A stretch of DNA of 64,000 nucleotides from Aphanomyces cochlioides (taxonomy: Eukaryota; Oomycota; Saprolegniomycetes; Saprolegniales; Verrucalvaceae): positions 124,001 to 188,000 of the forward strand of contig JAHQRK010000009.1 in assembly GCA_019828595.1 (NCBI GenBank), in the 5' to 3' direction. Below are positions 37,181-60,049 of the stretch, one piece after another; position 1 is the stretch's first letter, and every line of letters starts with the position of its first letter. The translations under genes and the position numbers were made by a program. A model generated the notes under the pieces. The model saw only the letters and a program-made list of their open reading frames with translations. It made no database searches and had not been told where the DNA came from.

Positions 37181-38065
37181 TCAAAACCGGAACAAGTTAC
37201 CCGTTACCCTAATTTCATATGACTTGATGTTGCTTTACGATTTGAGTTGATTTCTCACCTTTGGGGAATAGATCTAGTCGATTCGTTGTGCTGACATGGC
37301 TTAGAGCGACGTTACTTTCATAGTCGTCGCTGTTCATCAGTTCCAACTGTGTAGCATGGCTCTGACGAGCACCCAGCATTCGACATCCATCAAACCAAAG
37401 GTTTCCCAACCAAACCCAGCACAGGCAAGCGGTGTGTGAGGAGTAAACCTCGCGAACAGAGCACCATCAGAACAATTGAATTTGCAGAGGGGATACAGGA
37501 GGAAGCTTCAACCACAACCTTCGAGTCTGACCAGCCGCCAACACATTCATCAACGTCAATCATGCGATCATGAATTGGAAACTGTCGAACTGAATAAATC
37601 GAACGGCAATACCAATTTTAAGGGTTTTCGCGATTGTTTCGTGAACCCCCAAATAACATGAAGTAGTGCCGTCGTTCGTCCCACCTTAAACGAAGATAGA
37701 GGCAACCCAACCCACGATTCAAGTGGATGCTAGTCAACTCCTTTTTGGTGAAACTATGCCGATTTAAGTTTCGGGAGTGAGATATTCGGGCGACTCTGTA
37801 AATAACGATATCACAATCAGTGCATTCATTAGCAGCTGCAATTACAAGGCACCTTTCCCTTCCGACCTCGATGCACAAACACAATATCATCGAAATAATC
37901 TTTGCTAAGCTATATCTGATTCTGGGTGCATAAACATCCGCCATATGAATTGCTTGGCCCAGATGGCACGATTATTTGGGCCAGATCCCACGAGCAGACC
38001 AACAATCGGTCGACAGTTACTCGTTAAAGTTTTCTCAACAAAACATTGAACAGATAAACAAGCTG
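37181..38065. other. Intergenic region, no gene
   Basis: No recognisable coding signature. The last ~30 bp belong to the shared 3' flank of the truncated GH7 copies. Confidence 0.5.
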
Positions 38066-39121
38066 TTATCGATGGTTAACACAGCTCGACACAGACTTCG
38101 ACACTTCGTTGGGGATGCACTGAGAGTACCATTCCGAATACGCCTTGCACATGTACCCAGAGATACACGTGGTAGGACCAGCATAGTTGTTACCACCGCA
38201 TTGACCCCAAGCACCGACGGCACCAGATGAAGGAGCACTGGTGGAAGGAGCAGACGTTGGGCGAGTGGTAGGGGCCGACGTTGAAGGAGCAGATGTCGAA
38301 GGAGCCGAGGTCGAAGGACGGGTGGTTGGGGCCGACGTCGATGGGGTGTTCGATGGAGCCGACGACGACGGGGTAGGCTTCACCGAAGTGGTCGAGCCCA
38401 ACGTGCCGACACGGATGTTGCCGTACTTGACCGTCGCACCAGGGGATTGAGCCAACACATCCGCAGGCACACCGCTCGACGTGGGGCATGTACCACGACC
38501 CACACCAGGCACCGATGGGTCTTTCGTCACTGGGTACGTCGAGTCCAACCACAAGCAATTGGCAGCGTAGTCCACCCACAAACTCATCGTCAACACCACA
38601 CCCTTCTTCAACGCATCACCCATGGCCTTCAAGCCTCCCTTCTTCGAGTGGTCGTTGTTGTCACCAAACACAGTCTTGGCTTGGTTGCACACCTTTTCGT
38701 TCAACGAGTTGATGGCGTCAATGCCGCTCCAGTTGATGGGCGAGTTGTCAATCACCTTGCCGTTTTGGACGTAGAAGCGCTTGATCTCGACCAAGTTGCC
38801 GTTGGCCGTGTTGTCGTCCGTGATGAACTGGGTCACGACCGTGATGGGTTTGGTCGAGTCCACGGCAAAGTTGGAGCCAGGACCATAGAACGTGTTGTTG
38901 TTCATGCGGTAAGGGATGAAGTCACAACCGTCCTTGTCGCACACACCGGTGTATCGGTTGTTGGTGGCGTCGTCACCGCATTCCGTAGGACTCGAGCAGC
39001 GGTATTGGCTTGTCACCGTGCAAGGGTGAGACGTGTACGCTTGACTGATGGAGTTGGATTCCCAGATATCCATTTCAGCGCAGCACGAGCCGTATTGGCC
39101 AGAACCACCGTTGGGATCGCC
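38066..39121 (-). pseudogene. GH7 cellobiohydrolase fragment 1 (5'-truncated, stop-loss)
   Basis: The 3' part of a GH7 gene from just before the catalytic EMDIWES motif to the end. It has a Ser/Thr/Pro linker and a C-terminal CBM1 ([17 protein letters not shown]). The 5' half, including the signal peptide, is missing; homology ends at the junction 39121-39123 with fragment 2, which faces away. The stop used by the other copies (after CIPN) is changed from TAA to GAA at 38105-38107, so the frame runs 13 codons further. It differs from the mirrored copy at 51167-52135 by several substitutions. Without the first half it cannot fold as a cellulase. Confidence 0.85.
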
Positions 39122-39122
39122 G

Positions 39123-39834
39123 CGACAACACGGCCAACGGCAACTTGGTCGAGATCAAGCGCTTCTACGTTCAAAACGGCAAGGTGATTGACAACTCGCC
39201 CATCAACTGGAGCGGCATTGACGCCATCAACTCGTTGAACGAAAAGGTGTGCAACCAAGCCAAGACTGTGTTTGGTGACAACAACGACCACTCGAAGAAG
39301 GGAGGCTTGAAGGCCATGGGTGATGCGTTGAAGAAGGGTGTGGTGTTGACGATGAGTTTGTGGGTGGACTACGCTGCCAATTGCTTGTGGTTGGACTCGA
39401 CGTACCCAGTGACGAAAGACCCATCGGTGCCTGGTGTGGGTCGTGGTACATGCCCCACGTCGAGCGGTGTGCCTGCGGATGTGTTGGCTCAATCCCCTGG
39501 TGCGACGGTCAAGTACGGCAACATCCGTGTCGGCACGTTGGGCTCGACCACTTCGGTGAAGCCTACCCCGTCGTCGTCGGCTCCATCGAACACCCCATCG
39601 ACGTCGGCCCCAACCACCCGTCCTTCGACCTCGGCTCCTTCGACATCTGCTCCTTCGACGTCGGCCCCTACCACTCGCCCAACGTCTGCTCCTTCCACCA
39701 GTGCTCCTTCGTCTGGTGCCGTCGGTGCTTGGGGTCAATGCGGTGGTAACAACTATGCTGGTCCTACCACGTGTATCTCTGGGTACACGTGCAAGGCGTA
39801 TTCGGAATGGTACTCTCAGTGCATCCCCAACTAA
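39123..39834 (+). pseudogene. GH7 cellobiohydrolase fragment 2 (5'-truncated)
   Basis: Begins at the [14 protein letters not shown] region, downstream of the catalytic motif, and continues to a normal stop, with linker and CBM1. It is part of the left palindrome arm; its mirror image is 50454-51165, differing by at least one substitution (39171). It shares its 3' flank (to about 39890) with fragment 1, so the two are inverted copies of one ancestral gene's 3' end. Not functional. Confidence 0.85.
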
Positions 39835-40131
39835 GTGTCGAAGTCTGTGTCGTGCTGTGTTAACCATCGATAACAGCTTGTTTATCTGTTGAATTTTCTT
39901 GTGCTCCCGCGGGTTGAATGAGAGTGCAATGCGATCATATTGATAATCTTGTCTGGCAGAATCTGGTAGGGCCTTCTCTGCCACAGATCTCAACTTCGAT
40001 CAAGGCTGATAGAAACTGGAATACAGTTAATTTTTTAAGTTCATTCTATTTCATCAGGGCATGCAGATCGAAGGTGAACGAACTGGCGATGAAGTTGTTG
40101 TTCGGAATAGATGAGTAGTGTTGTGGGTGTC

Positions 40132-40475
40132 CTCGTTGACGAAGTTCCAGTTGTTGACTCTGGCAACTGTACGTCCTTCGTTTGGTTAACCGCAGTCGGT
40201 GCGGGTCCAGGACTACTTGGGATATTTGACACGCAACTCGATTCTAACGAAGACGTCAACCACCCAGTCTGGCAATTGTCGCTGATATCCCTGCATCTTT
40301 CAACTGATGTTGGAGTGATTTACCAACACATGCGATTCGACTGGTGTGATTCGATTGCGCAGGAAGTGGAAATTTGTATGGTGGACATCACATATCGACG
40401 ACATTCCTCGTTGACGAAGTTCCAGTTGTTGACTCTGGCAACTGTACAGTTGGTGCGGGTCCAGGACTATTTGAT
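40132..40475 (+). repeat. Direct repeat pair inside left arm
   Basis: The segment starting CTCGTTGACGAAGTTCCAGT with its following ~35 bases is present at 40132 and again at ~40407, each followed by GGTGCGGGTCCAGGACTA. The pair is mirrored in the right arm (about 49812-50156). Copy 2 runs directly into the dispersed repeat at 40467. Confidence 0.75.
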
Positions 40476-40545
40476 TGGTCAAAATATGAAAAATACTGAT
40501 ATATGATTGGCTAATCGATTGTTAGTCGATTCTGGTGAGTCGGTT
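40467..40545 (+). repeat. Dispersed ~75 bp repeat, copy 2
   Basis: Same sequence as 10914-10985 with a few changes (TTTGATTGGTCAAAATATG, then AATACTGATATATGATTGG, then TAGTCGATTCTGG). Also mirrored at 49743-49821. Confidence 0.75.
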
Positions 40546-42491
40546 CGATTCGACAGCCCAGTCCAATTTGGAATCGAATGAATAATATCGGCTTGCTTAA
40601 GAGTAATCATCAGCTGTAACGTTATTTACAAAGATAATTGGTGTTGCTGTAGAGTTTCAGGTATTAAGGAGCTTGTTGACATTGCATCATTTGTATCGAT
40701 TGAAGTTGTTAGCAATTTAGAGGAGGTGTCCAACTAATCGAACGAGCTCCACCTTGCTCATGAGTGGAAAGATAAATTAGCTTCAAATGCGCTCACATTT
40801 GTGCTTCAATGACTTCGTAGGATCATCGCAAGATTTATTTATTAGCAATATACCGTATTTGCCGTACTTTCGCACCTACGATTTTGCATCGCTGAGTTAC
40901 ACCTAAAGGCAAAAATTAAATGATTTTAGGATTTATCGATGAGTTGCACCTATTCCCTCTTGATTGGACAGAAATCAGCCTATCATGATGCTCAACCGAG
41001 AAAAAGTATTGGTATCTGCGTCGATCCCTTGGAATAGAGCTACGTGCGGTCGATGTCGTCGGTGTTTCTTGTGGAAGCGGAACAAGATCATGTACGTCAC
41101 ATGAGATTTGCGGCGACACAGTCCAAGTAAATGATGCGTTGATTTTCAAGCTTGAGGTTGTGTATAAAAATCACGATTCCAACGACCTTGATGGAATATC
41201 AGTCTATTTTAACCAATGAAACGGCAGAATGTAGAAGTGAAGCATTTTCCAATTTATCGTTGACTTGCACTTATCATATGATAATTTGACGACATGGCAA
41301 ATACGGTAGTTATGGAATAGCTCCAAAGTTTTTATACTTGACCATGCCCAGCATTCATTCTATACGGATAACAACTCAGATGATCCCGAAAATTTATCCA
41401 TACAAACTTCAAGTATAGTTGACGAGCACCCCTAAGGCCAAATCTGTCCTTTTCCATACATTTGGTCACAAAAGTCACTTCAGAAGAATCGCCATAACTC
41501 AATCGATTCTTTGAATAGGGCGATTTCAAGCGGTAATGTATCTTCCTCTAATCCACATCTATCGAAATTACCGCGTTTCTTATCCATAATATGACTCTCC
41601 AGAAATTTATCGACGGTCAAAGTGTGACTAGAATTTTGTTGTCTGTAGCTGATGTGTATCATACCAAATCGACAATAAAATTAAACCTATTTCGAACAAG
41701 GTTTAACTACAGTATTTTCTAGACAATAATTGTATGAACAATACATACATTCTTGTTACTTGATGCTTTCAAACGTTTGACCTTGACTTGAGTCGATGAT
41801 GTGGTCATTCATTAGTTTAGAGTCTAACGAGCTGGCATCAAGTGTGGTCATCGTGAATGACAGGACTAACATAAGTCACAAAACCTTGGTAAAGCATGGA
41901 GATCCAGCAGACAGCAAAACGATTATCAAGAAGACCAGAACATGAGCGCACACAAAAGGAAGTCACATTGTCAAACACGGCAGGAAGTGAAACATTTTAT
42001 CATGCGACAACGATGACATGATGAGCGGACAACATACTGTGGACGAATCTGTTCAAATTCGACAGCGATGAGCGAACCCAAGAAGTCGATTAGACCAAGT
42101 AGCCAGAGTGCACATCGACTTTCGGAGCCAAGAACGCACGAGCTCTGATAAAGAAGAGCAAGTTATTCTTGGAAGAACTGATTGCTGTCAATTCGGGTGA
42201 ATAGGGCGAGAACATTAAGTGCGAAAGTTAACAGATAGACAAAGCATATTCAAGGACAAGACTGACAAGGAGATCAAAGGACTAGTGCCGCTGGAGTGGG
42301 CTGGTGGTGAAACGAACCTACTACATGAGCAACTTCTTCAAATGTCCGGTGATACTTGCGTTGGTCAAGGAGTATGAGATGCTGAGGCATGCACACTGCG
42401 CACCACAGCACCAAAGGGTGTGTTCAAGTGAACAGGAAAACATACTGTTATCTCATGGTTATACAACTCATACACATTGACACTTGAGTGC
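40546..42491. other. Non-coding part of left arm
   Basis: Only short AT-rich ORFs. The right arm carries a 93-codon ORF (49068-49349, minus) whose left-arm equivalent is broken by the one-base indel near 41025. No family recognised. Confidence 0.5.
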
Positions 42492-44114
42492 TTAGTTGGG
42501 GATGCACTGAGAGTACCATTCCGAGTAAGCCTTGCACGTGTAGCCAGACACGCACGAGGTAGGACCAGAGTAGTTGTTACCACCACATTGGCCCCAAGCA
42601 CCAACGGCACCAGACGAAGGAACGCTGGTGGAAGGAGCAGACGTAGGGAAGGAACTCGGAGCCGACGTGGAAGGACGGCTGGTTGGGGCCGAAGACGATG
42701 GGGCCGACGTTGGCACCGACGAAGATGAGTTGGGCTTCACCGAAGTGGTCGAGCCCAACGTACCAACACGGATGTTGCCGTACTTGACAGTCACACCACC
42801 GGATTGAGCCAACACATCCGCAGGCACACCGCTCGACGTGGGGCATGGACCACGGCCAACACCAGGCACCGATGGGCTCTTGTCCACTGGATACGTCGAG
42901 TCCAACCACAAGCAGTTGGCGGCGTAGTCCACCCACAAACTCATCGTCAACACCACACCCTTCTTCAACGCAGCACCCATGGCCTTCAAACCACCCTTCT
43001 TCGAATGGTCGTTGGTGTCGCCAAACACAGTCTTGGCTTGGTTGCACACCTTTTCGTTCAACGAGTTGATGGCGTCAATGCCAGACCAGTTGATGTTGGA
43101 GTTGTCGATGACCTTGCCGTTTTGGACGTAGAAACGCTTGATTTCCACCAAGTTGCCATTGTCCGTGTTGTCGTCCGTGATGAATTGGGTCACGACCGTC
43201 ACGGGCTTGCTCGAGTCCAAGGTGTACGACGAACCAGGGCCGTAGAACGTGTGGTTGTTGAAACGGTAAGGGTTGAAGTCGCAACCGTCCTTGTCGCAAA
43301 TACCAGTGTAGCGGTTGTTGGTGACATCGTCACCGCATTCCGTGGGGCTAGAGCAACGAGTTGGCTCTGTCGTCGAGCAAGGGTGCGATGTGTAGGTTTG
43401 ACCGAAGCTGTTGGATTCCCAGATATCCATTTCAGCGCAGCACGAGCCGTATTGGCCCGAACCACCGTTGGGATCGCCCTTGCTTGGCGTCCAGTTCTTC
43501 ACGTTGGCTTCACCGTTGATAAACTTGATGTCGTGAGGACATTGGGCGTCGCAGTAACCTGTACCATAGGCGGCACCGGCCTTGTTCGTGGGGTACTTGG
43601 ACATACCACCGTCTTGGTCCATCTGGACAAAGTACAACGCACCGTTGAGACCGCAAGGCAGTTGCGAGGCATCCACATCGAACGTGAACTCCTTGTTGAG
43701 CAACTTGAACATCTTGTACTTCTTGTCGTCTTCGAGGAGGTAGATGCGCGAACCGACGTTGGCACCAGTCTTCAAGGCGATGCTCACAGTGTTGCCAGAA
43801 GCAGAGATACCGTACGTGCCAGTGTAGTCGGCACCGTCCAAGGCGCAGTTCTTGGCGCACGTGGCCGGGTCAGGGCACAAGGTCGAGTCCCACTTGTTGC
43901 CGGCGTAGCAGTTGGTGTAGCCTTCGACGTTGTGGGTCCAGCGCCAGTTGGCATCAAGCACGATCTTGGTGTTTTCGGTGGTGCATCCCGAGGCGGTACA
44001 CGTTTGGGAAGGGAGCGAAGGGTGCACTTCTGGCTTGCTCGTGCCGACTTGTTGGGCGTTGGAGAAGGCGACGAGAGCCGTGGCGAGGTAGGCGATGGTG
44101 GCAGCGGCCTTCAT
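42492..44114 (-). CDS. GH7 cellobiohydrolase with C-terminal CBM1, copy 3
   Basis: 540 residues; identical in the arm to the copy at 46173-47795. The start at 44114 gives a signal peptide ([20 protein letters not shown], cleavage before QQ). The frame is open for 55 codons further upstream, but those have no signal sequence. The GH7 catalytic domain spans ~21-455, with Glu228-Asp230-Glu233 in the EMDIWE motif (nucleophile and acid/base) and many paired cysteines. A Ser/Thr/Pro linker precedes a CBM1 ([17 protein letters not shown] ... [11 protein letters not shown]). Secreted; releases cellobiose from cellulose chain ends by family rule. The sequence directly before the ATG is conserved among the GH7 copies. 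Confidence 0.95.
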
Positions 44115-44160
44115 GGTTGGACTTGTTGTCGAAGATGTAAATCCGAAAATGAGGTCTTTG
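44115..44160 (-). promoter_or_regulatory. Conserved GH7 leader / initiator
   Basis: CTCATTTTCGGATT followed by a CTTCGACAACAAGTCCAACC-type leader lies immediately before the ATG here, at 46127-46172 and (slightly diverged) at 54676-54722. The CTCATTTT core resembles the oomycete initiator (TCAYTYY), giving a likely transcription start 35-45 nt from the start codon. Confidence 0.5.
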
Positions 44161-44211
44161 AGACTGAGCAATGCCAAAACCACTTCCATGACATATGCGT
44201 CGAAGTTGCTG

Positions 44212-46075
44212 CACGGCACTGACACTTGAAGCTCGTTTTTGTCTGGGTGTAGTTGGACATTAGCTATCATATGGCTCATTTTGAATATCCCACCAAGACT
44301 GAGTGTCGTGATGGGTTCGGCCTATTATGGACAGATCCAGCAAGAAGGTCGAGTAGATATCTGACTCAGACTTACTATCTTGGGTTATGTTGACAGTAAG
44401 AACATCAAAGAACCTGTCGGTTGTTTAATGAAAACAGTTCCTGCACGTATTAATATATTTTCACTTAATACTTGGTCGTAGGGGACGCATTTCAGTGATA
44501 CATGTATGTAACAGGAATCATATGCAGTGTACGATGATGAGAGAACAACAGGTGCTGAGGTCCCAATGATAGTTGAAACCAACCAATCCAGTTTGATTGT
44601 CAACTTGGAGTTCCACCCCAAATTGTGGTTTCTTGGTTGACATAACAGCAATGAATGCTGTCGACAGGGTTCTTGGATCAAGCACGTTATTAATAGTAGT
44701 TGAGCCCTTCCCAAAGGAGAATGCTTGCCTGAAACTACCCAAAGAAGTAGAGGCCTGGCCTGCTCGTAATGAATGCTATCTACCGTACTCATACAGTCAA
44801 CTGATATCTTTGTTCGTTGATTACGAAGTTTTATTCCTCTCTTCATAGAATGTGGAACCTTTAACATCCTGCTAAACGATCGCAACGCTTTTTGTTGACA
44901 GAACAGAGACATCTCGACGAGCGACTTTTGTCGTTGGCAAAGCTTTCCAAAGGGAATCAATTAAAGCTAGGGGATCGTTTGGCAATTCATCTACTAGATA
45001 GATGCCTGTTTGAAACTACCCCTCTCCAAGACTGCTTGGTCCATGCATGGTGCTTGGTAACTCTCAACGCTACTTGAGCACACCCAATTCCCCTGAGAAT
45101 TGTGATGGTTTCTGGCAACCAAAGACAATGCAGTAGTTCGATTCTCTCGTGCCCTGTACGTACGTATTCTTGCGTAGCGTGGTTGATCGCTTTCTGTGTT
45201 ACGACTGAGTTTGACGCGTCAACCACACTTGCGCATCAACGAGTTCAATATGCAGAAACGCGCCAATGAACCATAGAACAGGACAGAGAATCACGTTACA
45301 AAACAACTGCAATACGTCGACCAGCGACTTTCGGGTTGATCCAGAGCTGTCAGATTGTGGTCTTGCATCCCACATTCAGAAATTGTGTGGCCATGCATTT
45401 TTTGAAAATGTCGTGCAAATCACGTGCAATCGAGATGCACAAAGTCACACCACCAGGTTGACTCAATATAATTCACTTAGAAGTCTGATGCCGCCTCGAA
45501 AGAAACTTAACAGCTTAGGAGTGAGCAATTATATCCCCTGGCAGTTATCGTACTGTTTTTACAACTTCGCGTTGATCCGTTTTGTCTCTCGATGTGACTT
45601 TCTCGATTCTGGTGTGGTGTTTCCTGTTCTCCATGGAAGTCCATATCGCGTGTACCATCTATACAGCATATGTCAAGATGGCTTGGACATTCTCAACATT
45701 ACCTGCATCACTAGTCTTTACACAAACAAATCGTCACCAGAGGAACGAGCGACCTTACTGATATCAGCTTGCTCACGCACCATTGGAAAATGAAGCTGTC
45801 TTACTCGCTATATTGAGCTTGAAATTTCGCTGGCCAATGTCGCTCAATTCGCACGCTCAATCTTAAAAGCACCCATGCTAAGAAGTTACAGTACATGGTC
45901 TTTTGCGTTGTTTCCTGGCTCATATGATCTAATTGATGAGGGCGGAGTATACTCGAGTCCACATTGAACAGTGGGGGAAATCAAACTCCCTGCTGTATAT
46001 TAACGCAAATGCATCCGGATGGACCAATCCCATAGCACCAGGCCTACTATTGAAGTCCATCAAAACGTCGCCGTA
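44212..46075. other. Unique spacer of the inverted duplication
   Basis: 1.86 kb without an inverted counterpart. ORFs on both strands (up to ~190 codons) show no convincing family. A minus-strand piece at 44518-44742 (FSFGKGSTTINNVLDPRT) looks protein-like but is short. It acts as the loop of the palindrome and as the shared upstream region of the two divergent intact GH7 genes. Confidence 0.55.
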
Positions 46076-46172
46076 CAGCAACTTCGACGCATATGTCATG
46101 GAAGTGGTTTTGGCATTGCTCAGTCTCAAAGACCTCATTTTCGGATTTACATCTTCGACAACAAGTCCAACC

Positions 46173-47795
46173 ATGAAGGCCGCTGCCACCATCGCCTACC
46201 TCGCCACGGCTCTCGTCGCCTTCTCCAACGCCCAACAAGTCGGCACGAGCAAGCCAGAAGTGCACCCTTCGCTCCCTTCCCAAACGTGTACCGCCTCGGG
46301 ATGCACCACCGAAAACACCAAGATCGTGCTTGATGCCAACTGGCGCTGGACCCACAACGTCGAAGGCTACACCAACTGCTACGCCGGCAACAAGTGGGAC
46401 TCGACCTTGTGCCCTGACCCGGCCACGTGCGCCAAGAACTGCGCCTTGGACGGTGCCGACTACACTGGCACGTACGGTATCTCTGCTTCTGGCAACACTG
46501 TGAGCATCGCCTTGAAGACTGGTGCCAACGTCGGTTCGCGCATCTACCTCCTCGAAGACGACAAGAAGTACAAGATGTTCAAGTTGCTCAACAAGGAGTT
46601 CACGTTCGATGTGGATGCCTCGCAACTGCCTTGCGGTCTCAACGGTGCGTTGTACTTTGTCCAGATGGACCAAGACGGTGGTATGTCCAAGTACCCCACG
46701 AACAAGGCCGGTGCCGCCTATGGTACAGGTTACTGCGACGCCCAATGTCCTCACGACATCAAGTTTATCAACGGTGAAGCCAACGTGAAGAACTGGACGC
46801 CAAGCAAGGGCGATCCCAACGGTGGTTCGGGCCAATACGGCTCGTGCTGCGCTGAAATGGATATCTGGGAATCCAACAGCTTCGGTCAAACCTACACATC
46901 GCACCCTTGCTCGACGACAGAGCCAACTCGTTGCTCTAGCCCCACGGAATGCGGTGACGATGTCACCAACAACCGCTACACTGGTATTTGCGACAAGGAC
47001 GGTTGCGACTTCAACCCTTACCGTTTCAACAACCACACGTTCTACGGCCCTGGTTCGTCGTACACCTTGGACTCGAGCAAGCCCGTGACGGTCGTGACCC
47101 AATTCATCACGGACGACAACACGGACAATGGCAACTTGGTGGAAATCAAGCGTTTCTACGTCCAAAACGGCAAGGTCATCGACAACTCCAACATCAACTG
47201 GTCTGGCATTGACGCCATCAACTCGTTGAACGAAAAGGTGTGCAACCAAGCCAAGACTGTGTTTGGCGACACCAACGACCATTCGAAGAAGGGTGGTTTG
47301 AAGGCCATGGGTGCTGCGTTGAAGAAGGGTGTGGTGTTGACGATGAGTTTGTGGGTGGACTACGCCGCCAACTGCTTGTGGTTGGACTCGACGTATCCAG
47401 TGGACAAGAGCCCATCGGTGCCTGGTGTTGGCCGTGGTCCATGCCCCACGTCGAGCGGTGTGCCTGCGGATGTGTTGGCTCAATCCGGTGGTGTGACTGT
47501 CAAGTACGGCAACATCCGTGTTGGTACGTTGGGCTCGACCACTTCGGTGAAGCCCAACTCATCTTCGTCGGTGCCAACGTCGGCCCCATCGTCTTCGGCC
47601 CCAACCAGCCGTCCTTCCACGTCGGCTCCGAGTTCCTTCCCTACGTCTGCTCCTTCCACCAGCGTTCCTTCGTCTGGTGCCGTTGGTGCTTGGGGCCAAT
47701 GTGGTGGTAACAACTACTCTGGTCCTACCTCGTGCGTGTCTGGCTACACGTGCAAGGCTTACTCGGAATGGTACTCTCAGTGCATCCCCAACTAA
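46173..47795 (+). CDS. GH7 cellobiohydrolase with C-terminal CBM1, copy 4
   Basis: 540 residues, the mirror copy of 42492-44114, with the same signal peptide, EMDIWE catalytic motif, linker and CBM1. The frame is open upstream to 45933, but the extra residues come partly from the unique spacer and are unlikely to be translated; 46173 gives the signal peptide. With copy 3 it forms a divergent pair about 2.06 kb apart. The upstream regions are identical for only ~97 bp before they enter the spacer, so the two promoters differ beyond that. Confidence 0.95.
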
Positions 47796-50453
47796 GCACT
47801 CAAGTGTCAATGTGTATGAGTTGTATAACCATGAGATAACAGTATGTTTTCCTGTTCACTTGAACACACCCTTTGGTGCTGTGGTGCGCAGTGTGCATGC
47901 CTCAGCATCTCATACTCCTTGACCAACGCAAGTATCACCGGACATTTGAAGAAGTTGCTCATGTAGTAGGTTCGTTTCACCACCAGCCCACTCCAGCGGC
48001 ACTAGTCCTTTGATCTCCTTGTCAGTCTTGTCCTTGAATATGCTTTGTCTATCTGTTAACTTTCGCACTTAATGTTCTCGCCCTATTCACCCGAATTGAC
48101 AGCAATCAGTTCTTCCAAGAATAACTTGCTCTTCTTTATCAGAGCTCGTGCGTTCTTGGCTCCGAAAGTCGATGTGCACTCTGGCTACTTGGTCTAATCG
48201 ACTTCTTGGGTTCGCTCATCGCTGTCGAATTTGAACAGATTCGTCCACAGTATGTTGTCCGCTCATCATGTCATCGTTGTCGCATGATAAAATGTTTCAC
48301 TTCCTGCCGTGTTTGACAATGTGACTTCCTTTTGTGTGCGCTCATGTTCTGGTCTTCTTGATAATCGTTTTGCTGTCTGCTGGATCTCCATGCTTTACCA
48401 AGGTTTTGTGACTTATGTTAGTCCTGTCATTCACGATGACCACACTTGATGCCAGCTCGTTAGACTCTAAACTAATGAATGACCACATCATCGACTCAAG
48501 TCAAGGTCAAACGTTTGAAAGCATCAAGTAACAAGAATGTATGTATTGTTCATACAATTATTGTCTAGAAAATACTGTAGTTAAACCTTGTTCGAAATAG
48601 GTTTAATTTTATTGTCGATTTGGTATGATACACATCAGCTACAGACAACAAAATTCTAGTCACACTTTGACCGTCGATAAATTTCTGGAGAGTCATATTA
48701 TGGATAAGAAACGCGGTAATTTCGATAGATGTGGATTAGAGGAAGATACATTACCGCTTGAAATCGCCCTATTCAAAGAATCGATTGAGTTATGGCGATT
48801 CTTCTGAAGTGACTTTTGTGACCAAATGTATGGAAAAGGACAGATTTGGCCTTAGGGGTGCTCGTCAACTATACTTGAAGTTTGTATGGATAAATTTTCG
48901 GGATCATCTGAGTTGTTATCCGTATAGAATGAATGCTGGGCATGGTCAAGTATAAAAACTTTGGAGCTATTCCATAACTACCGTATTTGCCATGTCGTCA
49001 AATTATCATATGATAAGTGCAAGTCAACGATAAATTGGAAAATGCTTCACTTCTACATTCTGCCGTTTCATTGGTTAAAATAGACTGATATTCCATCAAG
49101 GTCGTTGGAATCGTGATTTTTATACACAACCTCAAGCTTGAAAATCAACGCATCATTTACTTGGACTGTGTCGCCGCAAATCTCATGTGACGTACATGAT
49201 CTTGTTCCGCTTCCACAAGAAACACCGACGACATCGACCGCACGTAGCTCTATTCCAAAGGGATCGACGCAGATACCAATACTTTTTCTCGGTTGAGCAT
49301 CATGATAGGCTGATTTCTGTCCAATCAAGAGGGAATAGGTGCAACTCATCGATAAATCCTAAAATCATTTAATTTTTGCCTTTAGGTGTAACTCAGCGAT
49401 GCAAAATCGTAGGTGCGAAAGTACGGCAAATACGGTATATTGCTAATAAATAAATCTTGCGATGATCCTACGAAGTCATTGAAGCACAAATGTGAGCGCA
49501 TTTGAAGCTAATTTATCTTTCCACTCATGAGCAAGGTGGAGCTCGTTCGATTAGTTGGACACCTCCTCTAAATTGCTAACAACTTCAATCGATACAAATG
49601 ATGCAATGTCAACAAGCTCCTTAATACCTGAAACTCTACAGCAACACCAATTATCTTTGTAAATAACGTTACAGCTGATGATTACTCTTAAGCAAGCCGA
49701 TATTATTCATTCGATTCCAAATTGGACTGGGCTGTCGAATCGAACCGACTCACCAGAATCGACTAACAATCGATTAGCCAATCATATATCAGTATTTTTC
49801 ATATTTTGACCAATCAAATAGTCCTGGACCCGCACCAACTGTACAGTTGCCAGAGTCAACAACTGGAACTTCGTCAACGAGGAATGTCGTCGATATGTGA
49901 TGTCCACCATACAAATTTCCACTTCCTGCGCAATCGAATCACACCAGTCGAATCGCATGTGTTGGTAAATCACTCCAACATCAGTTGAAAGATGCAGGGA
50001 TATCAGCGACAATTGCCAGACTGGGTGGTTGACGTCTTCGTTAGAATCGAGTTGCGTGTCAAATATCCCAAGTAGTCCTGGACCCGCACCGACTGCGGTT
50101 AACCAAACGAAGGACGTACAGTTGCCAGAGTCAACAACTGGAACTTCGTCAACGAGGACACCCACAACACTACTCATCTATTCCGAACAACAACTTCATC
50201 GCCAGTTCGTTCACCTTCGATCTGCATGCCCTGATGAAATAGAATGAACTTAAAAAATTAACTGTATTCCAGTTTCTATCAGCCTTGATCGAAGTTGAGA
50301 TCTGTGGCAGAGAAGGCCCTACCAGATTCTGCCAGACAAGATTATCAATATGATCGCATTGCACTCTCATTCAACCCGCGGGAGCACAAGAAAATTCAAC
50401 AGATAAACAAGCTGTTATCGATGGTTAACACAGCTCGACACAGACTTCGACAC
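47796..50453. other. Non-coding part of right arm
   Basis: Mirror of 39835-42491. It contains a 93-codon minus-strand ORF at 49068-49349 (VVGVSCGSGTRSCTS ... DALIFKLEVVYKNHD) with no recognised family, the direct repeat pair and the dispersed repeat at 49743-49821. Confidence 0.5.
49743..49821 (-). repeat. Dispersed ~75 bp repeat, copy 3 (mirror)
   Basis: Right-arm mirror image of the repeat at 40467-40545. Confidence 0.75.
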
Positions 50454-51165
50454 TTAGTTGGGGATGCACTGAGAGTACCATTCCGAATACGCCTTGCACG
50501 TGTACCCAGAGATACACGTGGTAGGACCAGCATAGTTGTTACCACCGCATTGACCCCAAGCACCGACGGCACCAGACGAAGGAGCACTGGTGGAAGGAGC
50601 AGACGTTGGGCGAGTGGTAGGGGCCGACGTCGAAGGAGCAGATGTCGAAGGAGCCGAGGTCGAAGGACGGGTGGTTGGGGCCGACGTCGATGGGGTGTTC
50701 GATGGAGCCGACGACGACGGGGTAGGCTTCACCGAAGTGGTCGAGCCCAACGTGCCGACACGGATGTTGCCGTACTTGACCGTCGCACCAGGGGATTGAG
50801 CCAACACATCCGCAGGCACACCGCTCGACGTGGGGCATGTACCACGACCCACACCAGGCACCGATGGGTCTTTCGTCACTGGGTACGTCGAGTCCAACCA
50901 CAAGCAATTGGCAGCGTAGTCCACCCACAAACTCATCGTCAACACCACACCCTTCTTCAACGCATCACCCATGGCCTTCAAGCCTCCCTTCTTCGAGTGG
51001 TCGTTGTTGTCACCAAACACAGTCTTGGCTTGGTTGCACACCTTTTCGTTCAACGAGTTGATGGCGTCAATGCCGCTCCAGTTGATGGGCGAGTTGTCAA
51101 TCACCTTGCCGTTTTGGACGTAGAAGCGCTTGATCTCGACCAAGTTGCCGTTGGCCGTGTTGTCG
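50454..51165 (-). pseudogene. GH7 cellobiohydrolase fragment 5 (5'-truncated)
   Basis: Mirror image of fragment 2 (39123-39834), with the same truncation point, intact stop, linker and CBM1. One difference was seen (51117 against 39171). No start, signal peptide or catalytic motif. Confidence 0.85.
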
Positions 51166-51166
51166 C

Positions 51167-52135
51167 GGCGATCCCAACGGTGGTTCTGGCCAATACGGCT
51201 CGTGCTGCGCTGAAATGGATATCTGGGAATCCAACTCCATCAGTCAAGCGTACACGTCTCACCCTTGCACGGTGACAAGCCAATACCGCTGCTCGAGTCC
51301 TACGGAATGCGGTGACGACGCCACCAACAACCGATACACCGGTGTGTGCGACAAGGGCGGTTGTGACTTCAACCCTTACCGCATGAACAACCACACGTTC
51401 TACGGTCCTGGCTCCAACTTTGCCGTGGACTCGACCAAACCCATCACGGTCGTGACCCAGTTCATCACGGACGACAACAAGGACAACGGCAACTTGGTCG
51501 AGATCAAGCGCTTCTACGTCCAAAACGGCAAGGTGATTGACAACTCGCCCATCAACTGGAGCGGCATTGACGCCATCAACTCGTTGAACGAAAAGGTGTG
51601 CAACCAAGCCAAGACTGTGTTTGGTGACAACAACGACCACTCGAAGAAGGGAGGTTTGAAGGCCATGGGTGATGGGTGTGGTGTTGACGATGAGTTTGTG
51701 GGTAGACTACGCTGCCAATTGCTTGTGGTTGGACTCGACATACCCAGTGACGAAAGACCCATCGGTGCCTGGTGTGGGTCGTGGTACATGCCCCACGTCG
51801 AGCGGTGTGCCTGCGGATGTGTTGGCTCAATTCCCTGGTGCGACGGTCAAGTACGGCAACATAAAGTGGGTGCCTTGGGTACGACGACCTCAGTGAAGCC
51901 TGGTCCTACGTCGGCTCCATCGAACACCCCATCGACGTCGACACCTAGCTCTCCAGCGACCACTGGCCCAACTGCTCGCCCCACGTCGGCTCCTTCCACC
52001 AGTGCTCCTCCGTCTGGATCTGTTGGTGCTTACGGCCAATGCGGTGGTATCAACTACTCTGGTCCTACCACATGCGTCTCTGGCTACACGTGCAAGGCGT
52101 ACTCGGAATGGTACTCTCAGTGCATCCCCAACTAA
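51167..52135 (+). pseudogene. GH7 cellobiohydrolase fragment 6 with compensating frameshifts
   Basis: Starts at the GGCGATCCCAACGG point like fragment 1 and contains EMDIWES. Near 51672 it lacks 11 bases (the codons ALKK in its relatives), shifting the frame. The shifted frame stays open for about 63 codons ([14 protein letters not shown], instead of [15 protein letters not shown]). A one-base loss near 51863 restores the frame, and a normal linker and CBM1 follow ([17 protein letters not shown]). The linker differs from that of fragments 1, 2 and 5, so it descends from a different paralogue or was converted. It lacks the 5' half and is not functional. Confidence 0.8.
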
Positions 52136-52959: not shown

Positions 52960-54675
52960 TTAGTTGGGAATGCACTGAGAGTACCATTCCGAATACGTCT
53001 TGCACGTGCAGCCAGACACGCATGTGGACGAACCCGAATAGTTGTTACCACCGCATTGGCCCCACGCACCAACGGCACCAGACGAAGGAGCACTGGTGGA
53101 AGGAGCAGAGGTAGGAGCAGACGTTGGACGAGTGGTTGGCGCCGTGGTTGGACGAGTGGTAGGAGCCGTCGTTGGGCGAGTGGTAGGAGCCGTCGTTGGG
53201 CGAGTCGTAGGAGCAGTCGTTGGGCGGGTCGAAGGAACCGACGTAGGAGCCGACGAAGAAGGACGGCTCGTTGGCACCGACGAAGAAGGATTTGGCTTCA
53301 CAGACGTCGTCGAGCCCAAAGAACCCACCCGAATGTTGCCGTACTTGACAGTCGCACCGTCGGATTGAGCCAACACATCCGCAGGCACACCGCTCGACGT
53401 GGGGCATGGACCACGGCCAACACCAGGCACCGATGGGCTCTTGTCCACTGGATACGTCGAGTCCAACCACAAGCAGTTGGCGGCGTAGTCCACCCACAAA
53501 CTCATCGTCAACACCACACCCTTCTTCAACGCAGCACCCATGGCCTTCAAACCACCCTTCTTCGAATGGTCGTTGGTGTCGCCAAACACAGTCTTGGCTT
53601 GGTTGCACACCTTTGCGTTCAACGAGTTGATGGCGTCAATGCCAGACCAGTTGATGTTGGAGTTGTCGATGACCTTGCCGTTTTGGACGTAGAAACGCTT
53701 GATTTCCACCAAGTTGCCATTGTCCGTGTTGTCGTCCGTGATGAATTGGGTCACGACCGTCACGGGCTTGCTCGAGTCCAAGGTGTACGACGAACCAGGG
53801 CCGTAGAACGTGTGGTTGTTGAAACGGTAAGGGTTGAAGTCGCAACCGTCCTTGTCGCAAATACCAGTGTAGCGGTTGTTGGTGACATCGTCACCGCATT
53901 CCGTGGGGCTAGAGCAACGAGTTGGCTCTGTCGTCGAGCAAGGGTGCGATGTGTAGGTTTGACCGAAGCTGTTGGATTCCCAGATATCCATTTCAGCGCA
54001 GCACGAGCCGTATTGGCCCGAACCACCGTTGGGATCGCCCTTGCTTGGCGTCCAGTTCTTCACGTTGGCTTCACCGTTGATAAACTTGATGTCGTGAGGA
54101 CATTGGGCGTCGCAGTAACCTGTACCATAGGCGGCACCGGCCTTGTTCGTGGGGTACTTGGACATACCACCGTCTTGGTCCATCTGGACAAAGTACAACG
54201 CACCGTTGAGACCGCAAGGCAGTTGCGAGGCATCCACATCGAACGTGAACTCCTTGTTGAGCAACTTGAACATCTTGTACTTCTTGTCGTCTTCGAGGAG
54301 GTAGATGCGCGAACCGACGTTGGCACCAGTCTTCAAGGCGATGCTCACAGTGTTGCCAGAAGCAGAGATACCGTACGTGCCAGTGTAGTCGGCACCGTCC
54401 AAGGCGCAGTTCTTGGCGCACGTGGCCGGGTCAGGGCACAAGGTCGAGTCCCACTTGTTGCCGGCGTAGCAGTTGGTGTAGCCTTCGACGTTGTGGGTCC
54501 AGCGCCAGTTGGCATCAAGCACGATCTTGGTGTTTTCGGTGGTGCATCCCGAGGCGGTACACGTTTGGGAAGGGAGCGAAGGGTGCACTTCTGGCTTGCT
54601 CGTGCCGACTTGTTGGGCGTTGGAGAAGGCGACGAGAGCTGTGGCGAGGTAGGCGATGGTGGCAGCGGCCTTCAT
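52960..54675 (-). CDS. GH7 cellobiohydrolase with expanded linker and CBM1, copy 7
   Basis: 571 residues, signal peptide identical to copies 3 and 4 (start 54675). The catalytic domain is almost identical to theirs; one visible change is Glu to Ala in NEKVCN/NAKVCN. The linker is longer, with five [11 protein letters not shown] heptads in tandem (about 53120-53230). The CBM1 has [14 protein letters not shown] instead of [14 protein letters not shown]; the extra Cys and lost aromatic at that position may weaken cellulose contact (inference). Upstream identity with the other copies ends after ~50 bp, so it has its own promoter. Confidence 0.95.
53120..53230 (-). repeat. Linker-encoding tandem repeat
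   Basis: Units of about 21 bases encode Thr-Arg-Pro-Thr-Thr-Ala-Pro. On the plus strand they read TAGGAGCCGTCGTTGGGCGA-like units. Replication slippage would explain the length difference from the GH7 copies without them. Confidence 0.75.
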
Positions 54676-54726
54676 GGTTGGACTTGTTGTCGAAGGTGTG
54701 AATCCGAAAATGAGACTCTTCAGCAC

Positions 54727-55896
54727 ATGTGACCACGACAGGCTTGAACTTTGACACGATCTCGAAGAACTCTCACTCCTGCTGATTGTGGCATGGACAA
54801 ATTCTGAATTTGCGTGGCTATGCCTGCACGATACTCTACTCGTTCGGACTTTCAGACGGTAGATTATCGCCTGTCATGATTCATGCACTGTTTATGGCTG
54901 GCCCATGCAAGAATCGAGCGATGTACCATAGTTGACTTTGTCGTGTTTGGCTCCTGCATATAGACTCATTAACTATTCTTTCCTCTTTAACGAGTTTTCT
55001 GTCCTATGGCGATTGCATAACGATTGAAACTTGACCGCCTTGACAGAGATCTTGTGGATTGTCGTTCCCATTCATCTTTGTGTAAAGGCTGGAGTGGACT
55101 TGAAATGGGTGTGTTACTGGTACGTAATTGTCTTGGGTGTGGCCAGTCAACAAGCAGTACCCATCATTCGAATCAATGTCTATCAGCAAAACGGCGACAC
55201 TGTACGAGATACGCACGTCGTTGCGAAGCTCGAAGAAGCCATTCGCAGCATCCACAGCGAGCACCCTCCTTTGCCGCCAACTGAGCAGCTCTACCAACAG
55301 CTTGGACTCAACATTCACATGTCTTCCTATCGTTCGTTGAAGGTCCATGCGTTCTTATCATGACCTCAAGAGAGTCCTGCCATGTTAAGATGAGTCCAAC
55401 AACTGGTTTCTCTATGTAAAGCCGATCCAGGGGAAGAGCAGATCGGTCCATGACAGATTGGAGCAGTTGACGCGTTTGTAAGCACCTCAGCTGTTTCCAA
55501 GCCGATTCCTGTAAAATATATACGAAGGATAATGACTCCTCGCCTGGGAAAAGAACGACCGACTGGTTCAGCCGCATCATGGCTTCATTCGATCACAGTC
55601 TAAAGAACGACTCGCCACACATTGAAAAACCCGCAGACAACGCGGGCCAAAGTTCAATGCGCATGGACTCGATTGGGATAACGCTGAAGACATGACATGA
55701 TATATCCCCAGGACGAGCATATGCTTGGACACTCTCTTCGCTGACGATGGGTTTATGAACAGCGTTTGTAAGCTTGCGTTACACGCAGAAAAAACATCAA
55801 TGTTTTGGCTTGTCTAAGTACAGTCGCGCTGTCGCTCACGCTTGGACATCATGGCACGTTTGATCAGTCTTGATTTTCTTCTCTCTCAACCAAGCC
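54727..55896. other. Intergenic region with one uncertain ORF
   Basis: A plus-strand frame at 55031-55363 contains a coding-like stretch (AVPIIRINVYQQNGD ... VAKLEEAIRSIHSEHPP) but has no recognised family and its 5' end is unclear. Otherwise nothing seen. Confidence 0.4.
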
Positions 55897-57572
55897 ATGA
55901 AGATCGCCGTGACAATCGCTCTTGTCGCTTCGTCAATCATCGGCGTCGCCAACGCTCAAGTCGGTGCGTGGGGACAATGCGGTGGTAACAACTACGCTGG
56001 CTCGACCACTTGCGTCTCCAGCTACGAATGCCACACCTACTCGGAATGGTACTCGCAGTGCATTCCTGGCTCTGGCAACACTCCATCGTCCATCCCAACC
56101 ACTGCGCCAAAGACTACGCAACCAACTGCCAAGCCAACGACTGCACCAACCTCCGTGCCTACTGTCGCACGTACGCAAAAACCAACTCCTAGCACTTCCA
56201 AGCCTCAAGTCTCAACTCCTGCTCCATCGCAATCGACGTCCAAGCCAACGCCTGTCCGAGTCACGCCAAGTTCTGCTCCACCTGCTAACGGACAACTCAA
56301 CTTCCGCGCTACCGTGGACGGCATTACTTTGAACGGATCTCCTTTCTTGTTCAAGGGTGCCAACTACTTTGGTTTGGAAACTGATATTTCCGTTCCTCAC
56401 GGTCTCTGGGGTGGCGGACAATCCACGACGATTGCCAAGATTGCTGCCTTCCTCAAGAATAACGGATTCAATTCTGTCCGTCTTCCTTTCGCCATCGATG
56501 CTGTCTTGTCCAACTGTTGCGTGTTGACCACGGAGCTATAGTAGCGCTACACGCAACAAAAGTATGTTGTCAACCCCCGGACAATCATACTCCGCAGTCT
56601 ACCCAAGACCACTCGCGCCCACTATACTCTGGTCCAACACTATCCGGGGGATCGAACCCTAACCACCTGACCCTCAGGGTCTATACTCAGTTCAAGGTTG
56701 ACAACACCAACAAGGCCATCGACCCCACCAAGATCACAAACGAAGCTGCCTTGTTGAGCCAATTCAGCGGCAAGACTCTTTCGTACTTTGACGTGATGGA
56801 CGACACCATCAAGACGTTCGCTGACAACAAGATTGTTGTTTTGTTGGATGCCCACGTTTTGACCGCTGCCAGTGGTATCACTGAGCTCTGGTACACTTCG
56901 AGCGCCGACAAGGACAACTTTGAAAACGCCTGGAAGATTGTCGCCAACCGCTACAAGAACACGTGGAACGTCGTCGCTGCCGATTTGAAGAACGAACCCC
57001 ATGGCTCTGCCACCTGGGGCAGCGGCAACTCGGCCACAGACTGGAACCAACAAGCGTTGAAGATTGCCACAACCATCCAAGCTAATGTCCCTCGTTGGCT
57101 CATCTTCGTCGAAGGTATCTCGCAATCTTCGCGCGACCAAGCTGCTTACCCCACTTTCTGGGGTGAAAACTTGATGGATGTCCAACGTGCTCCCATCACT
57201 TTGCCCGTCGCTGACCGTCTTGTGTACAGTGCTCACGTGTAGAGCTCGGATGTCTCTGCTCAACCTTATTTCTCGGCTTCCAACTACCCAGACAACATGC
57301 CTGCTATCTGGGATCTCCACTTTGGCTTTGTCAACAAGAAGTATGGCCCAGTTGTGATCGGTGAATGGGGTGGCAAGTTCCATTCCTCGTCGGATATTCA
57401 ATGGCAAAAGAAGTTTGCCTCGTACTTGAGCCAAAACTCGATCGGTTTCTTCTATTGGAGCGTGAACCCCAACTCTGGCGACACTGAAGGTCTCCTTGAA
57501 AACGACTGGAACACCCCTCGCTCCGACAAGTTGGCTGTGCTTGCTACCCTCAAGGGCACGCCCATCCCTTAA
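55897..57572 (+). pseudogene. CBM1-GH5 endoglucanase, interrupted
   Basis: Signal peptide [20 protein letters not shown], then an N-terminal CBM1 ([17 protein letters not shown] ... [10 protein letters not shown]), a Thr/Pro/Lys linker and a GH5 domain. GH5 marks: [25 protein letters not shown], acid/base Glu in ADLKNEPHG, YSAHV, and nucleophile Glu in VVIGEWGGKF. Two defects: a ~170 bp segment (56521-56690) interrupts the gene between LSN and VDNTNKAIDP, and TAG at 57239-57241 stands where TAC (Tyr of HVYSS) is expected. The segment has GT...AG borders in phase, so it might be spliced, but it is longer than other introns here and contains stops. With the TAG, the full enzyme is unlikely to be made. 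Confidence 0.8.
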
Positions 57573-57748: not shown

Positions 57749-60049
57749 TTAGATTTGCACACACTGGCTGTAGTACTCATTGGATTTCTGGCATTGATAG
57801 CCTGCAACACAAGTCGTCGGTCCGGTATAACCGTTTCCACCGCATTGCGACCACGCAGCAGCGAGGTTCTTGGTATCAACAGGGGCAACATCCGCAGCAA
57901 TACATTGCGAGAACCATTCCGTGTACTTGTGGCAAGTCCAGCCCGGTTGACAGTCTGTCGGTCCGTTGTAATCATTGCCACCACATTTGCCAAAGGGGGC
58001 GACAGGGACATTGCTATCGACTGATGTGGCACTCGTGGTTGGTGTAGGAATACATGGCGTTGGATCAGAACCAGGGCACGGAATTGACATATCAGGTTGG
58101 CTCGATGGCCCTGAAGTTGGAGAACAAGGCGCTTGAGGTGGCGGATTGGTAGCTAGTTGTTCGTCCGTGATACACTGCGAATAGTATTCGGTGTACTTGT
58201 GGCAGAACCAACCTGCCTGACAGTCTGTCACACCGGTGTACTCCTTACCACCACACTGGCCAAAAGGAGCAACGGGACCGCTGTTGGCATTCGACAGAGC
58301 ACTGGAGGATGGAGCACTGGTAGATGGAGCACTGGTGGACGGCACTGGGGTGACGGGGGCAGACGTGTACCTCACATGGCTTGGTGCTGGAGCAGACGAC
58401 GAGCTAGCTGCGGGTGATTGAGTTGGTACGGGAATTTCATTTGGCGGTAGGCATTGAGAGTACCATTCGGAGTATGCATGACAGACACAATCCGCTTGGC
58501 AAGTTGTTGTTCCTTTGTAATCCTTACCACCACATTGGCCGTATCGGACGACAGGACCAGAATAACTAGATGGAGAGGTTGGATTTGCTGGGGCAGATGA
58601 TGGTTGTGGGGCTGAGGATGTGGTCGGTGCCGTCGTCGGGGCGACCGTAGCTGGGGGAACTTGTCCAGTTGTTGTGCCCAAGTCACCCACACGAATATTT
58701 CCGTACTTGACAGTCGCAGTGGGAAACTGCGCCTCGACTTCAGCAGGCACGCCAGTCGTCGTAGCGCACGTGCCACGAGCGACACCTGGAAGAGACGTGT
58801 TCTTGTTGAGTGGATAATACGAGTCCAACCACAAGCAATTCGCAGCATGGTCAGTCCACAAACTCATGGTCAAGACGACGCCACTCTTGAGTGCCTCGCC
58901 CATGGCCTTCAAACCGCCCTTCTTGGCATGATCATTTGGATCACCAAAGAGAGACTTGGACTGGTTGCACATTTGGTCGGTGATCGAGTTGATGGGATCG
59001 ATGCCAGTCCAGTTGATGGCAGAGTTGTCGATCTTCACGCCGTTTTGGACGTAGAAGCGCTTGATTTCGACCAAGTTACCAGTGTCTGTGTTGTCGTCCG
59101 TGATGAACTGGGTCACGACCGTGATGGGTTTGGTTGAGTCGACGGCAAATTGGGATCCAGGGCCGTAAAAGTTGTGACTGTTCATGCGATATGGGTTGAA
59201 GTCGCAGCCGTCCTTGTCACACACACCGTCGAAGCGGTTGCCCGTGTCGTCATCACCGCATTCAGTTGCATTCACGCATCGATATTGGCCAGGACGAGCG
59301 CAAGGGTGTGACGTGTAGGCTTGACTGATCTTGTTGGATTCCCAGATGTCCATTTCAGCGCAGCACGAGCCGTATTGACCGACACCGGCATTGGGGTCCC
59401 CCATGCTGGGAGTCCAGTTGATGACATTGGCTTCGCCGTTGATGAACTTGATGTCGTGAGGACATTGGGCGTCGCAGTAACCCGTACCGTAGGCGGCACC
59501 GGCCTTGTTCGTCGAGTATTTGGACTTGCCACCGTCTTGGTTCATTTGCACAAAGTACAACGCACCGTTGAGACCACAAGGAAGCTGGGAGACATCCACG
59601 TCGAATGTGAATTCCTTGTTGAGCAATTTGTACATCTTGTAGTTATTGTCGTCTTCAAGGAGGTAGAGGCGCGAGCCCACGTTGGTGCTGTAAGGGCCAT
59701 GAGTGACCAGCCGCAGATTCACTTGGTTGCCTGACGTTGTGACACCGTACGTGCCAGCATAGTCAGCTCCGTCCAAGGCACAATTCTTGGCACATGTGGC
59801 TGGGTCAGGGCACAAAGTTGAGTTCCACTTGTTGCCTGTGTAGCAGTTTGTGTTGCCACCGACAGTATGAAGCCAACGCCAGTTGGCATCAAGCACAATC
59901 TTGGTATTGTCAGTCGTGCAGCCCGCGGCAGTGCACGTTTGAGATGGCAGCGGCGGGTGGACTTCAGGCGCATTTGTGCCAACTTGCTGGGCGTCCGAAA
60001 ACACGACAAGGGCCGAAGCGAGGTAGGCGATGGTGGTGGCAATCTTCAT
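57749..60049 (-). CDS. GH7 cellobiohydrolase with four C-terminal CBM1 modules
   Basis: 766 residues from the ATG at 60049, which gives a signal peptide ([20 protein letters not shown]). The frame extends 35 codons further upstream without a signal sequence. The GH7 domain keeps the EMDIWES motif and has a small insertion absent from its neighbours ([12 protein letters not shown]). Then follow four CBM1 modules separated by Ser/Thr/Pro linkers: [45 protein letters not shown] and [17 protein letters not shown]7 enzymes normally carry one or none. Modules 1-3 begin with an aromatic at the first contact position (Tyr, Phe, Phe), module 4 with Trp; all keep the CGG core. The last module ends at the stop (YYSQCVQI). 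It is the most diverged GH7 of the cluster. Confidence 0.95.

Follow-up and report, generated by a model that had tools for sequence, protein, structure and literature searches.

Two cellulase genes stand on the arms of a large, nearly perfect inverted repeat in Aphanomyces cochlioides, and the locus raises the question of whether the arms are alike because they were duplicated recently or because they have been kept alike by gene conversion. This species is an oomycete and a root pathogen of sugar beet, as stated in the part of PMC11653986 drawn on here. The DNA that we analysed (64,000 bp, hereafter the window) is C89:124001-188000 of one assembly of the species (genome of 76.2 Mb, 94 contigs), and its cluster of GH7 genes lies 162-184 kb inside C89, a contig of 2,775,065 bp. 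Self-BLAST (E-value 0) and base-level alignment showed that 39123-44217 and 46070-51165 are reverse complements. The outermost part of the same duplication has diverged more than these arms, and we consider it probable that the inverted duplication was homogenised by arm-to-arm gene conversion, within a wider ectopic conversion among GH7 genes. The features of the repeat are as follows:

39123-44217, unstranded: left arm, high-identity part (self-BLAST and base-level alignment)
46070-51165, unstranded: right arm, high-identity part (self-BLAST and base-level alignment)
44218-46069, unstranded: spacer of 1,852 bp, with the upstream regions of both G genes beyond ~103 bp from each ATG
42492-44114, minus strand: gene G_L, complete GH7 with CBM1, 540 amino acids, cellobiohydrolase-like (profile and PDB match)
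46173-47795, plus strand: gene G_R, complete GH7 with CBM1, protein identical to that of G_L
39903-42491, unstranded: part of the arm that separates fragment I from gene G, containing pieces of dispersed repeats
39123-39834, plus strand: I_L, outer end of the left arm, truncated GH7 fragment matching the profile from ~291
50454-51165, minus strand: I_R, truncated GH7 fragment, mirror of I_L
38066-39121, minus strand: O_L, truncated GH7 fragment lying outermost on the left, matching the profile from ~191, with CBM1 and joined head-to-head to I_L
51167-52135, plus strand: O_R, truncated GH7 fragment lying outermost on the right, joined head-to-head to I_R and with substitutions of its own
38038-38816, unstranded: O_L segment 98.8-99.1% identical to the inner fragment, a putative local conversion tract

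The arms differed in total by three substitutions, at 39171/51117 (T/C), 39853/50435 (T/A) and 44212/46075 (C/T), the last being the sixth base counted from the inner end of the arm, and by one 1-base indel at 41028/49259. A search of the 76.2-Mb genome with the spacer, which passes over simple repeats and very common words, returned a single match, the spacer itself, so that near-identical inverted arms surround a unique spacer, as in a palindrome. A sequence-only reading made before this analysis had proposed an inverted duplication with near-perfect arms around a unique spacer of ~1.86 kb, and both proposals were borne out, with the arm ends refined to those listed above. Its list of differences held the 39171/51117 substitution and the indel, missed the one at 39853/50435, and did not include that at 44212/46075, which lies just outside the arms as first drawn; its gene content for each arm, a complete GH7 gene facing the spacer and a truncated one, stood, and a second truncated fragment further out had been overlooked. 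We rejected the idea that the spacer is itself a decayed palindrome, as it contains no inverted match longer than a 12-mer.

In both arms the 5' end of G is turned toward the spacer, and the two proteins of 540 residues are identical. The Pfam GH7 profile was covered from position 1 to 434 of 435 (653 bits), with a CBM_1 match of 46 bits, and the best PDB matches were cellobiohydrolases, 1q9h being the first (E 6e-183). EMDIWE in G aligned with EMDVWE of 1q9h, so that the E-x-D-x-x-E motif, which we take to be the catalytic motif of GH7, is present; the G proteins are thus putative cellobiohydrolases. The upstream sequence common to G_L and G_R extends ~103 bp from the ATG, after which the unrelated spacer begins. 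The segment between I and G (39903-42491) showed no substitution and one 1-base indel between the arms. Pieces of the dispersed repeats within the arms (~40130-41669 and its right-arm mirror) matched many contigs at 68-94%, one element being apparently nested inside another, and the left arm holds a 43-bp direct repeat (40130-40172/40405-40447).

The I and O fragments both lack the N-terminal part. Homology between the two sides continues past 39123/51165 to ~38104/52136, at lower identity, through the O fragments, and the arms align without gaps across the O-I junction (39121/39123 and 51167/51165); the duplication therefore took in O. The tail of O_R differs from that of O_L from 51863 on (break at 38413/51863). 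O_L was probably overwritten by I over ~780 bp, because BLAST showed its positions 38038-38816 to be 98.8% identical to 39123-39902 (inverted) and 99.1% identical to 50386-51165. The O-I arrangement looks like an older head-to-head GH7 palindrome from which the centre has been deleted.

We then compared the outer and inner parts of the duplication. As far as the tail break, the two O fragments differed by 10 substitutions and an 11-base gap. Two substitutions and one indel were present in the inner arm without gene G (39123-42491, 3,369 bp), a comparison that avoids the coding part. The contrast was significant (10/~705 against 2/3,369, Fisher's exact p = 1.1e-6), and it was still significant in a more careful test from which the stretch that O_L shares with I was removed (4/305 against 2/3,369, Fisher p = 6.1e-4). 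Along the whole alignment, 10 of the 13 mismatches fell within the outer 506 of 5,792 ungapped columns, a split that none of 10,000 shuffles reached under the assumption of equal rates along the arm. If the differences of the O fragments postdate the duplication, the arms are more alike than its age predicts.

The origin of these outer differences was examined by searching for each side-specific letter in its context in the window, in C17:1-200000 and in two further 10-kb stretches. This search took in eight of the 10 differences (those other than 38805 and 38633), which are specific to one side, three to O_L and five to O_R. With a 17-base context, seven of the eight letters were unique (3/3 of O_L and 4/5 of O_R), and with a 13-base context six of the eight. 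The three O_L-specific letters lie outside the stretch overwritten by I. Since most side-specific letters had no second occurrence in the sequence searched, the majority of the outer differences look like mutations that postdate the duplication, although some may be imports. The inner 5.1 kb in turn appears to have been homogenised since the duplication, because the outer part of the same duplication has diverged more.

Evidence of the same kind came from a gene outside the palindrome:

52960-54675, minus strand: gene H, complete GH7 with CBM1 outside the palindrome, catalytic part near-identical to that of G and tail different
53269-54714, unstranded: stretch of H 98.7% identical to G (BLAST), a putative conversion tract

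The tract in H extends from 39 bp upstream of the ATG, the whole of the upstream stretch common to G and H, to roughly where the catalytic domain ends. G and H showed four mismatches in the first 1,354 columns of their alignment and 56 in the last 308, which was matched by none of 10,000 shuffles, and their synonymous divergence (dS) rose from 0.023 over the catalytic part to 0.404 over the final 45 codons (135 bases), in a table made from eight of 14 gene copies (those other than c171, c176, c181, c254, c270 and c274). It is unusual that the homogenised stretch of G and H is the catalytic domain, ending about at the linker, and that the tail and the upstream region are distinct. The record P0001 (AC1031_021024) matched H at 563 of 566 aligned residues and differed in its last ~20 residues, being a different gene model.

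Comparison with Aphanomyces euteiches suggested that the catalytic domain and the tail may have different histories. The catalytic parts were 95.3-95.8% identical across species for any pair, while within A. euteiches P0002 and P0003 were identical at 444 of 444 catalytic residues and at 36 of 45 tail residues. Tail identities were 43/45 for G and P0003, 41/45 for H and P0002, and 39/45 for G and H. Trees were made under LG+G4 from 17 of 20 rows (all but Ac_c270, Ae_P0011 and Ae_P0015), the A. euteiches rows being part of 120 listed. The catalytic tree placed G and H together (100/95), apart from P0002, P0003 and P0007 of A. euteiches, and the catalytic data rejected a grouping of G with P0003 and P0007 (approximately unbiased (AU) test, p = 6e-68), while the tail tree joined H to P0002 (91/88) and G to P0003 and P0007 (93/88). 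Tails thus tend to pair across species, with modest support. The simplest reading is that the catalytic domains were converted within each species; swapping of tails is an alternative that would give the same trees.

We also surveyed the rest of the family. The GH7 profile matched at least 65 places in the genome, exons and fragments being counted separately. The 16 matches above 600 bits were on two contigs only, 12 on C17 and four on C89, and six of these 16 form three head-to-head pairs, one in the window and two on C17. P0012 (AC1031_010943, A. cochlioides) is encoded on C17 at 100% identity. The stretches of C17 examined were 1-200000, 248001-258000 and 268001-278000. The two pairs on C17 and the remaining complete GH7 gene of the window are:

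C17:270356-273007/273491-276142: palindrome c270/c274, 2,652-bp arms with two mismatches (99.9%), 483-bp spacer
C17:132497-134576/137001-139064: palindrome c133/c137, 96.8%, 2.4-kb spacer
57749-60049 of the window, minus strand: gene K, a complete GH7 gene more distant from G (78%), carrying four CBM1 stretches

The c133/c137 pair showed nine mismatches from 0 to 1799 counted from the ATG, 28/182 in the 200 bp upstream and 23/90 just downstream, with no clear alignment of the flanks further out, which is what conversion within an older palindrome would leave. The three GH7 palindromes have different arm ends and therefore probably arose separately. Many inverted and direct duplications (0.9-7.1 kb, 97.7-99.96%) with GH7 fragments and other frames were found in C17:50-116 kb. 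The earlier suggestion that the palindrome structure could drive further copy-number change is plausible, because of the two further GH7 palindromes and the many recent duplications of C17. The family thus has palindromes of different apparent ages, 99.94% (three mismatches in ~5.1 kb), 99.9% and 96.8%, in which palindrome formation, homogenisation and collapse could be followed in one oomycete.

In the explanation that we favour, a GH7 gene with CBM1 and the relic of two head-to-head GH7 fragments would have been duplicated in inverted orientation around a spacer of 1.85 kb. Arm-to-arm gene conversion would then have maintained the likeness of the inner 5.1 kb of the arms, whereas the outermost 1 kb would have escaped it and diverged. 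Wider ectopic conversion among the GH7 genes of the genome would have homogenised catalytic domains and left linker/CBM1 tails and upstream regions distinct. The structure, the uneven divergence, the tract-like identity of G and H and the catalytic-domain tree come directly from the sequences. Conversion as the process, the order of the events and the central deletion are what we infer from them. The sequence-only reading had left open whether the arms are recent or converted; the outer divergence, the G/H tract and the c133/c137 palindrome favour conversion.

Several points weigh against this explanation. At 38805 and 38633, the letter of O_L is also that of I, and the letter of O_R is that of G and H; these two differences therefore need not be new mutations. 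One O_R letter is also present in three C17 copies, and a further C17 GH7 copy has a second one when the shorter context is used; imports may thus account for part of the outer divergence. The most careful comparison of outer and inner parts stands on four substitutions in 305 bp, and the single assembly is a single witness, taken without raw reads. Recent duplication explains c270/c274 equally well. The tail alignment alone (48 columns) does not reject G with H (AU p = 0.213), and P0002 and P0003 are different A. euteiches records, the comparison with that species having been made on protein.

The alternative that survives best is a very recent inverted duplication without conversion between the arms, in which one or both of the outer fragments owe their differences to overwriting from other GH7 copies. 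The near-zero divergence over 5.1 kb, the abundance of recent copies in the C17 cluster and the left outer fragment, 780 bp of which were copied from the inner one or overwritten by it, agree with it, as does the presence of one of the eight side-specific letters (two with the shorter context) in other GH7 copies, and unsearched or lost copies could have been donors as well. However, the seven letters (six with the shorter context) that are unique in the sequence searched are expected from mutation and not from import, and the three O_L-specific letters are outside the overwritten stretch. We therefore regard such a duplication as unlikely, although it is a possibility to be kept in mind.

An assembly artefact, in which a palindromic read or a mis-join of haplotypes made the second arm, is very improbable. 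One assembly was examined, without read depth, which leaves some room for it. Palindromic reads from a missed adaptor are expected to have identical arms and no single-copy spacer, whereas here the 1,852-bp spacer has a single match and the arms differ at four places. The outer pieces differ at 10 places and by the 11-base gap, with different tails, and the same assembly contains GH7 palindromes with other breakpoints and spacers. A read chimera is unlikely because the spacer is single-copy, the arms are non-identical and the outer divergence is graded, and a mis-join would hardly produce arms whose divergence is graded and whose flanks differ. Purifying selection alone, although GH7 catalytic domains belong to conserved enzymes, was rejected as the cause of the identity, since it is contradicted by non-coding and synonymous sites: outside the gene the arms resemble each other about as closely as within it, and the dS between G and H jumps from 0.023 to 0.404 along the length of a single gene.

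Concerted evolution by gene conversion is of a known kind, described in nematodes and yeast; its occurrence here in an oomycete cellulase family would be a case new to the literature searched. In Caenorhabditis, the cited part of PMC1803023 describes near-perfect inverted repeats of paralogous pairs that are more alike within than between species, for which conversion was proposed. Head-to-head paralogues, near-identical inverted repeats and a spacer are common to those pairs and to our locus, and one case there also has homogenised 5' parts and diverged C-terminal parts. However, the structure was found there in three species while we have the DNA of one, and the part homogenised in G and H is the catalytic domain. 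The flip/flop repeats of Saccharomyces, in the cited part of PMC9731477, are likewise gene-bearing inverted repeats (~4 kb) alike within strains and species, and their sequences agreed between two independent long-read assemblies in seven strains; they enclose, unlike here, a 24-kb region of 15 genes, and an orientation polymorphism, in which the middle flips, was shown for them. The arms of human Y-chromosome palindromes are also alike (>99.9%), which the cited part of PMC3723533 ascribes to gene conversion, but their scale is different and that part of the Y does not recombine.

For the GH7 family itself, the cited part of PMC5907361 reports 39 genes in A. euteiches and states that the large family was not found in A. 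astaci. The likeness lies in a large set, in a plant-pathogenic Aphanomyces, with many CBM1 proteins; the passages of that paper drawn on here do not describe palindromes or conversion, and its main text has no occurrence of 'tandem' or 'gene cluster', the words palindrome and conversion not having been searched for there. A GH7 enzyme of Phytophthora sojae is reported in the cited part of PMC7343703 to be necessary for full virulence. We found no report of the present case among the titles and abstract openings listed from the open-licence literature searched, although the genome paper of Botkin et al. 2022 may describe it. The main texts of PMC8780586 and PMC7720654 have no occurrence of 'gene conversion' or 'inverted', and the passages of PMC11653986 at hand do not mention GH7 or cellulase.

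If conversion has acted as proposed, trees of cellulases, and perhaps of other secreted-enzyme families, in these oomycetes mix the history of genes with that of conversion. Copy counts, 'recent expansions' and orthology calls made from the catalytic domain would then mislead, and the true history would be better preserved in tails and flanks. A broader idea, which we put forward tentatively and hold a little short of an even chance, is that Aphanomyces GH7 clusters repeatedly form head-to-head palindromes and lose them by central deletion, and that these work as engines of conversion, spreading one catalytic-domain cassette from gene to gene with promoters and linker/CBM1 tails untouched, independently in A. 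cochlioides and A. euteiches. Enzyme cores would in that event undergo concerted evolution, and targeting modules and expression would diversify.

Other features of the genome were noted. Arrays of TTTGGGGG were found at contig ends with the G-rich strand outward (e.g. C17:1-347, C1:7-341 and C2:2709921-2710292), and also on C4, C6, C7, C12, C18, C19 and C20. On the left ends of C1, C4, C12 and C17 the matches begin within 8 bp. For six of the seven right ends checked (C2, C6, C7, C18, C19 and C20), the last listed 22-unit match is 6-182 bp from the end, and for C24 the last of the 100 matches listed out of 164 lies 3.8 kb from the contig end. Four units of TTAGGG or of TTTAGGG gave no match in the genome, the latter motif being proposed as the telomere repeat of oomycetes in the cited part of PMC11139960. 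TTTGGGGG looks like a non-canonical telomere repeat; among the papers listed that contain it together with telomere terms, none is on an oomycete by its title. C17 begins with such a telomere-like array, its GH7 matches starting ~15 kb from the array. A location of the window cluster near a telomere was rejected, as C89 does not open with telomeric bases and the cluster is 162-184 kb inside the contig.

C17:34625-49889, next to GH7 fragments, is a tandem array with a period of ~1,069 bp (~14 units, 99.6-99.9% identical), one frame of which encodes a Pro/Ser/Thr-rich stretch, and C17:155209-156996 is a tight palindrome without a GH7 match (806-bp arms, 99.9%, 176-bp spacer). In the window, two overlapping plus-strand frames in different phases at 55870-57239, the first carrying CBM1 and the second a GH5 cellulase domain, lie next to the GH7 genes and are perhaps a single GH5 and CBM1 gene that contains an intron or a frame change. 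Frames of UNC-93/MFS-like transporters, 77% identical in DNA, are located at 1192-2652 and 5197-6558, and a DDE_3 transposase-like frame at 8563-9657.

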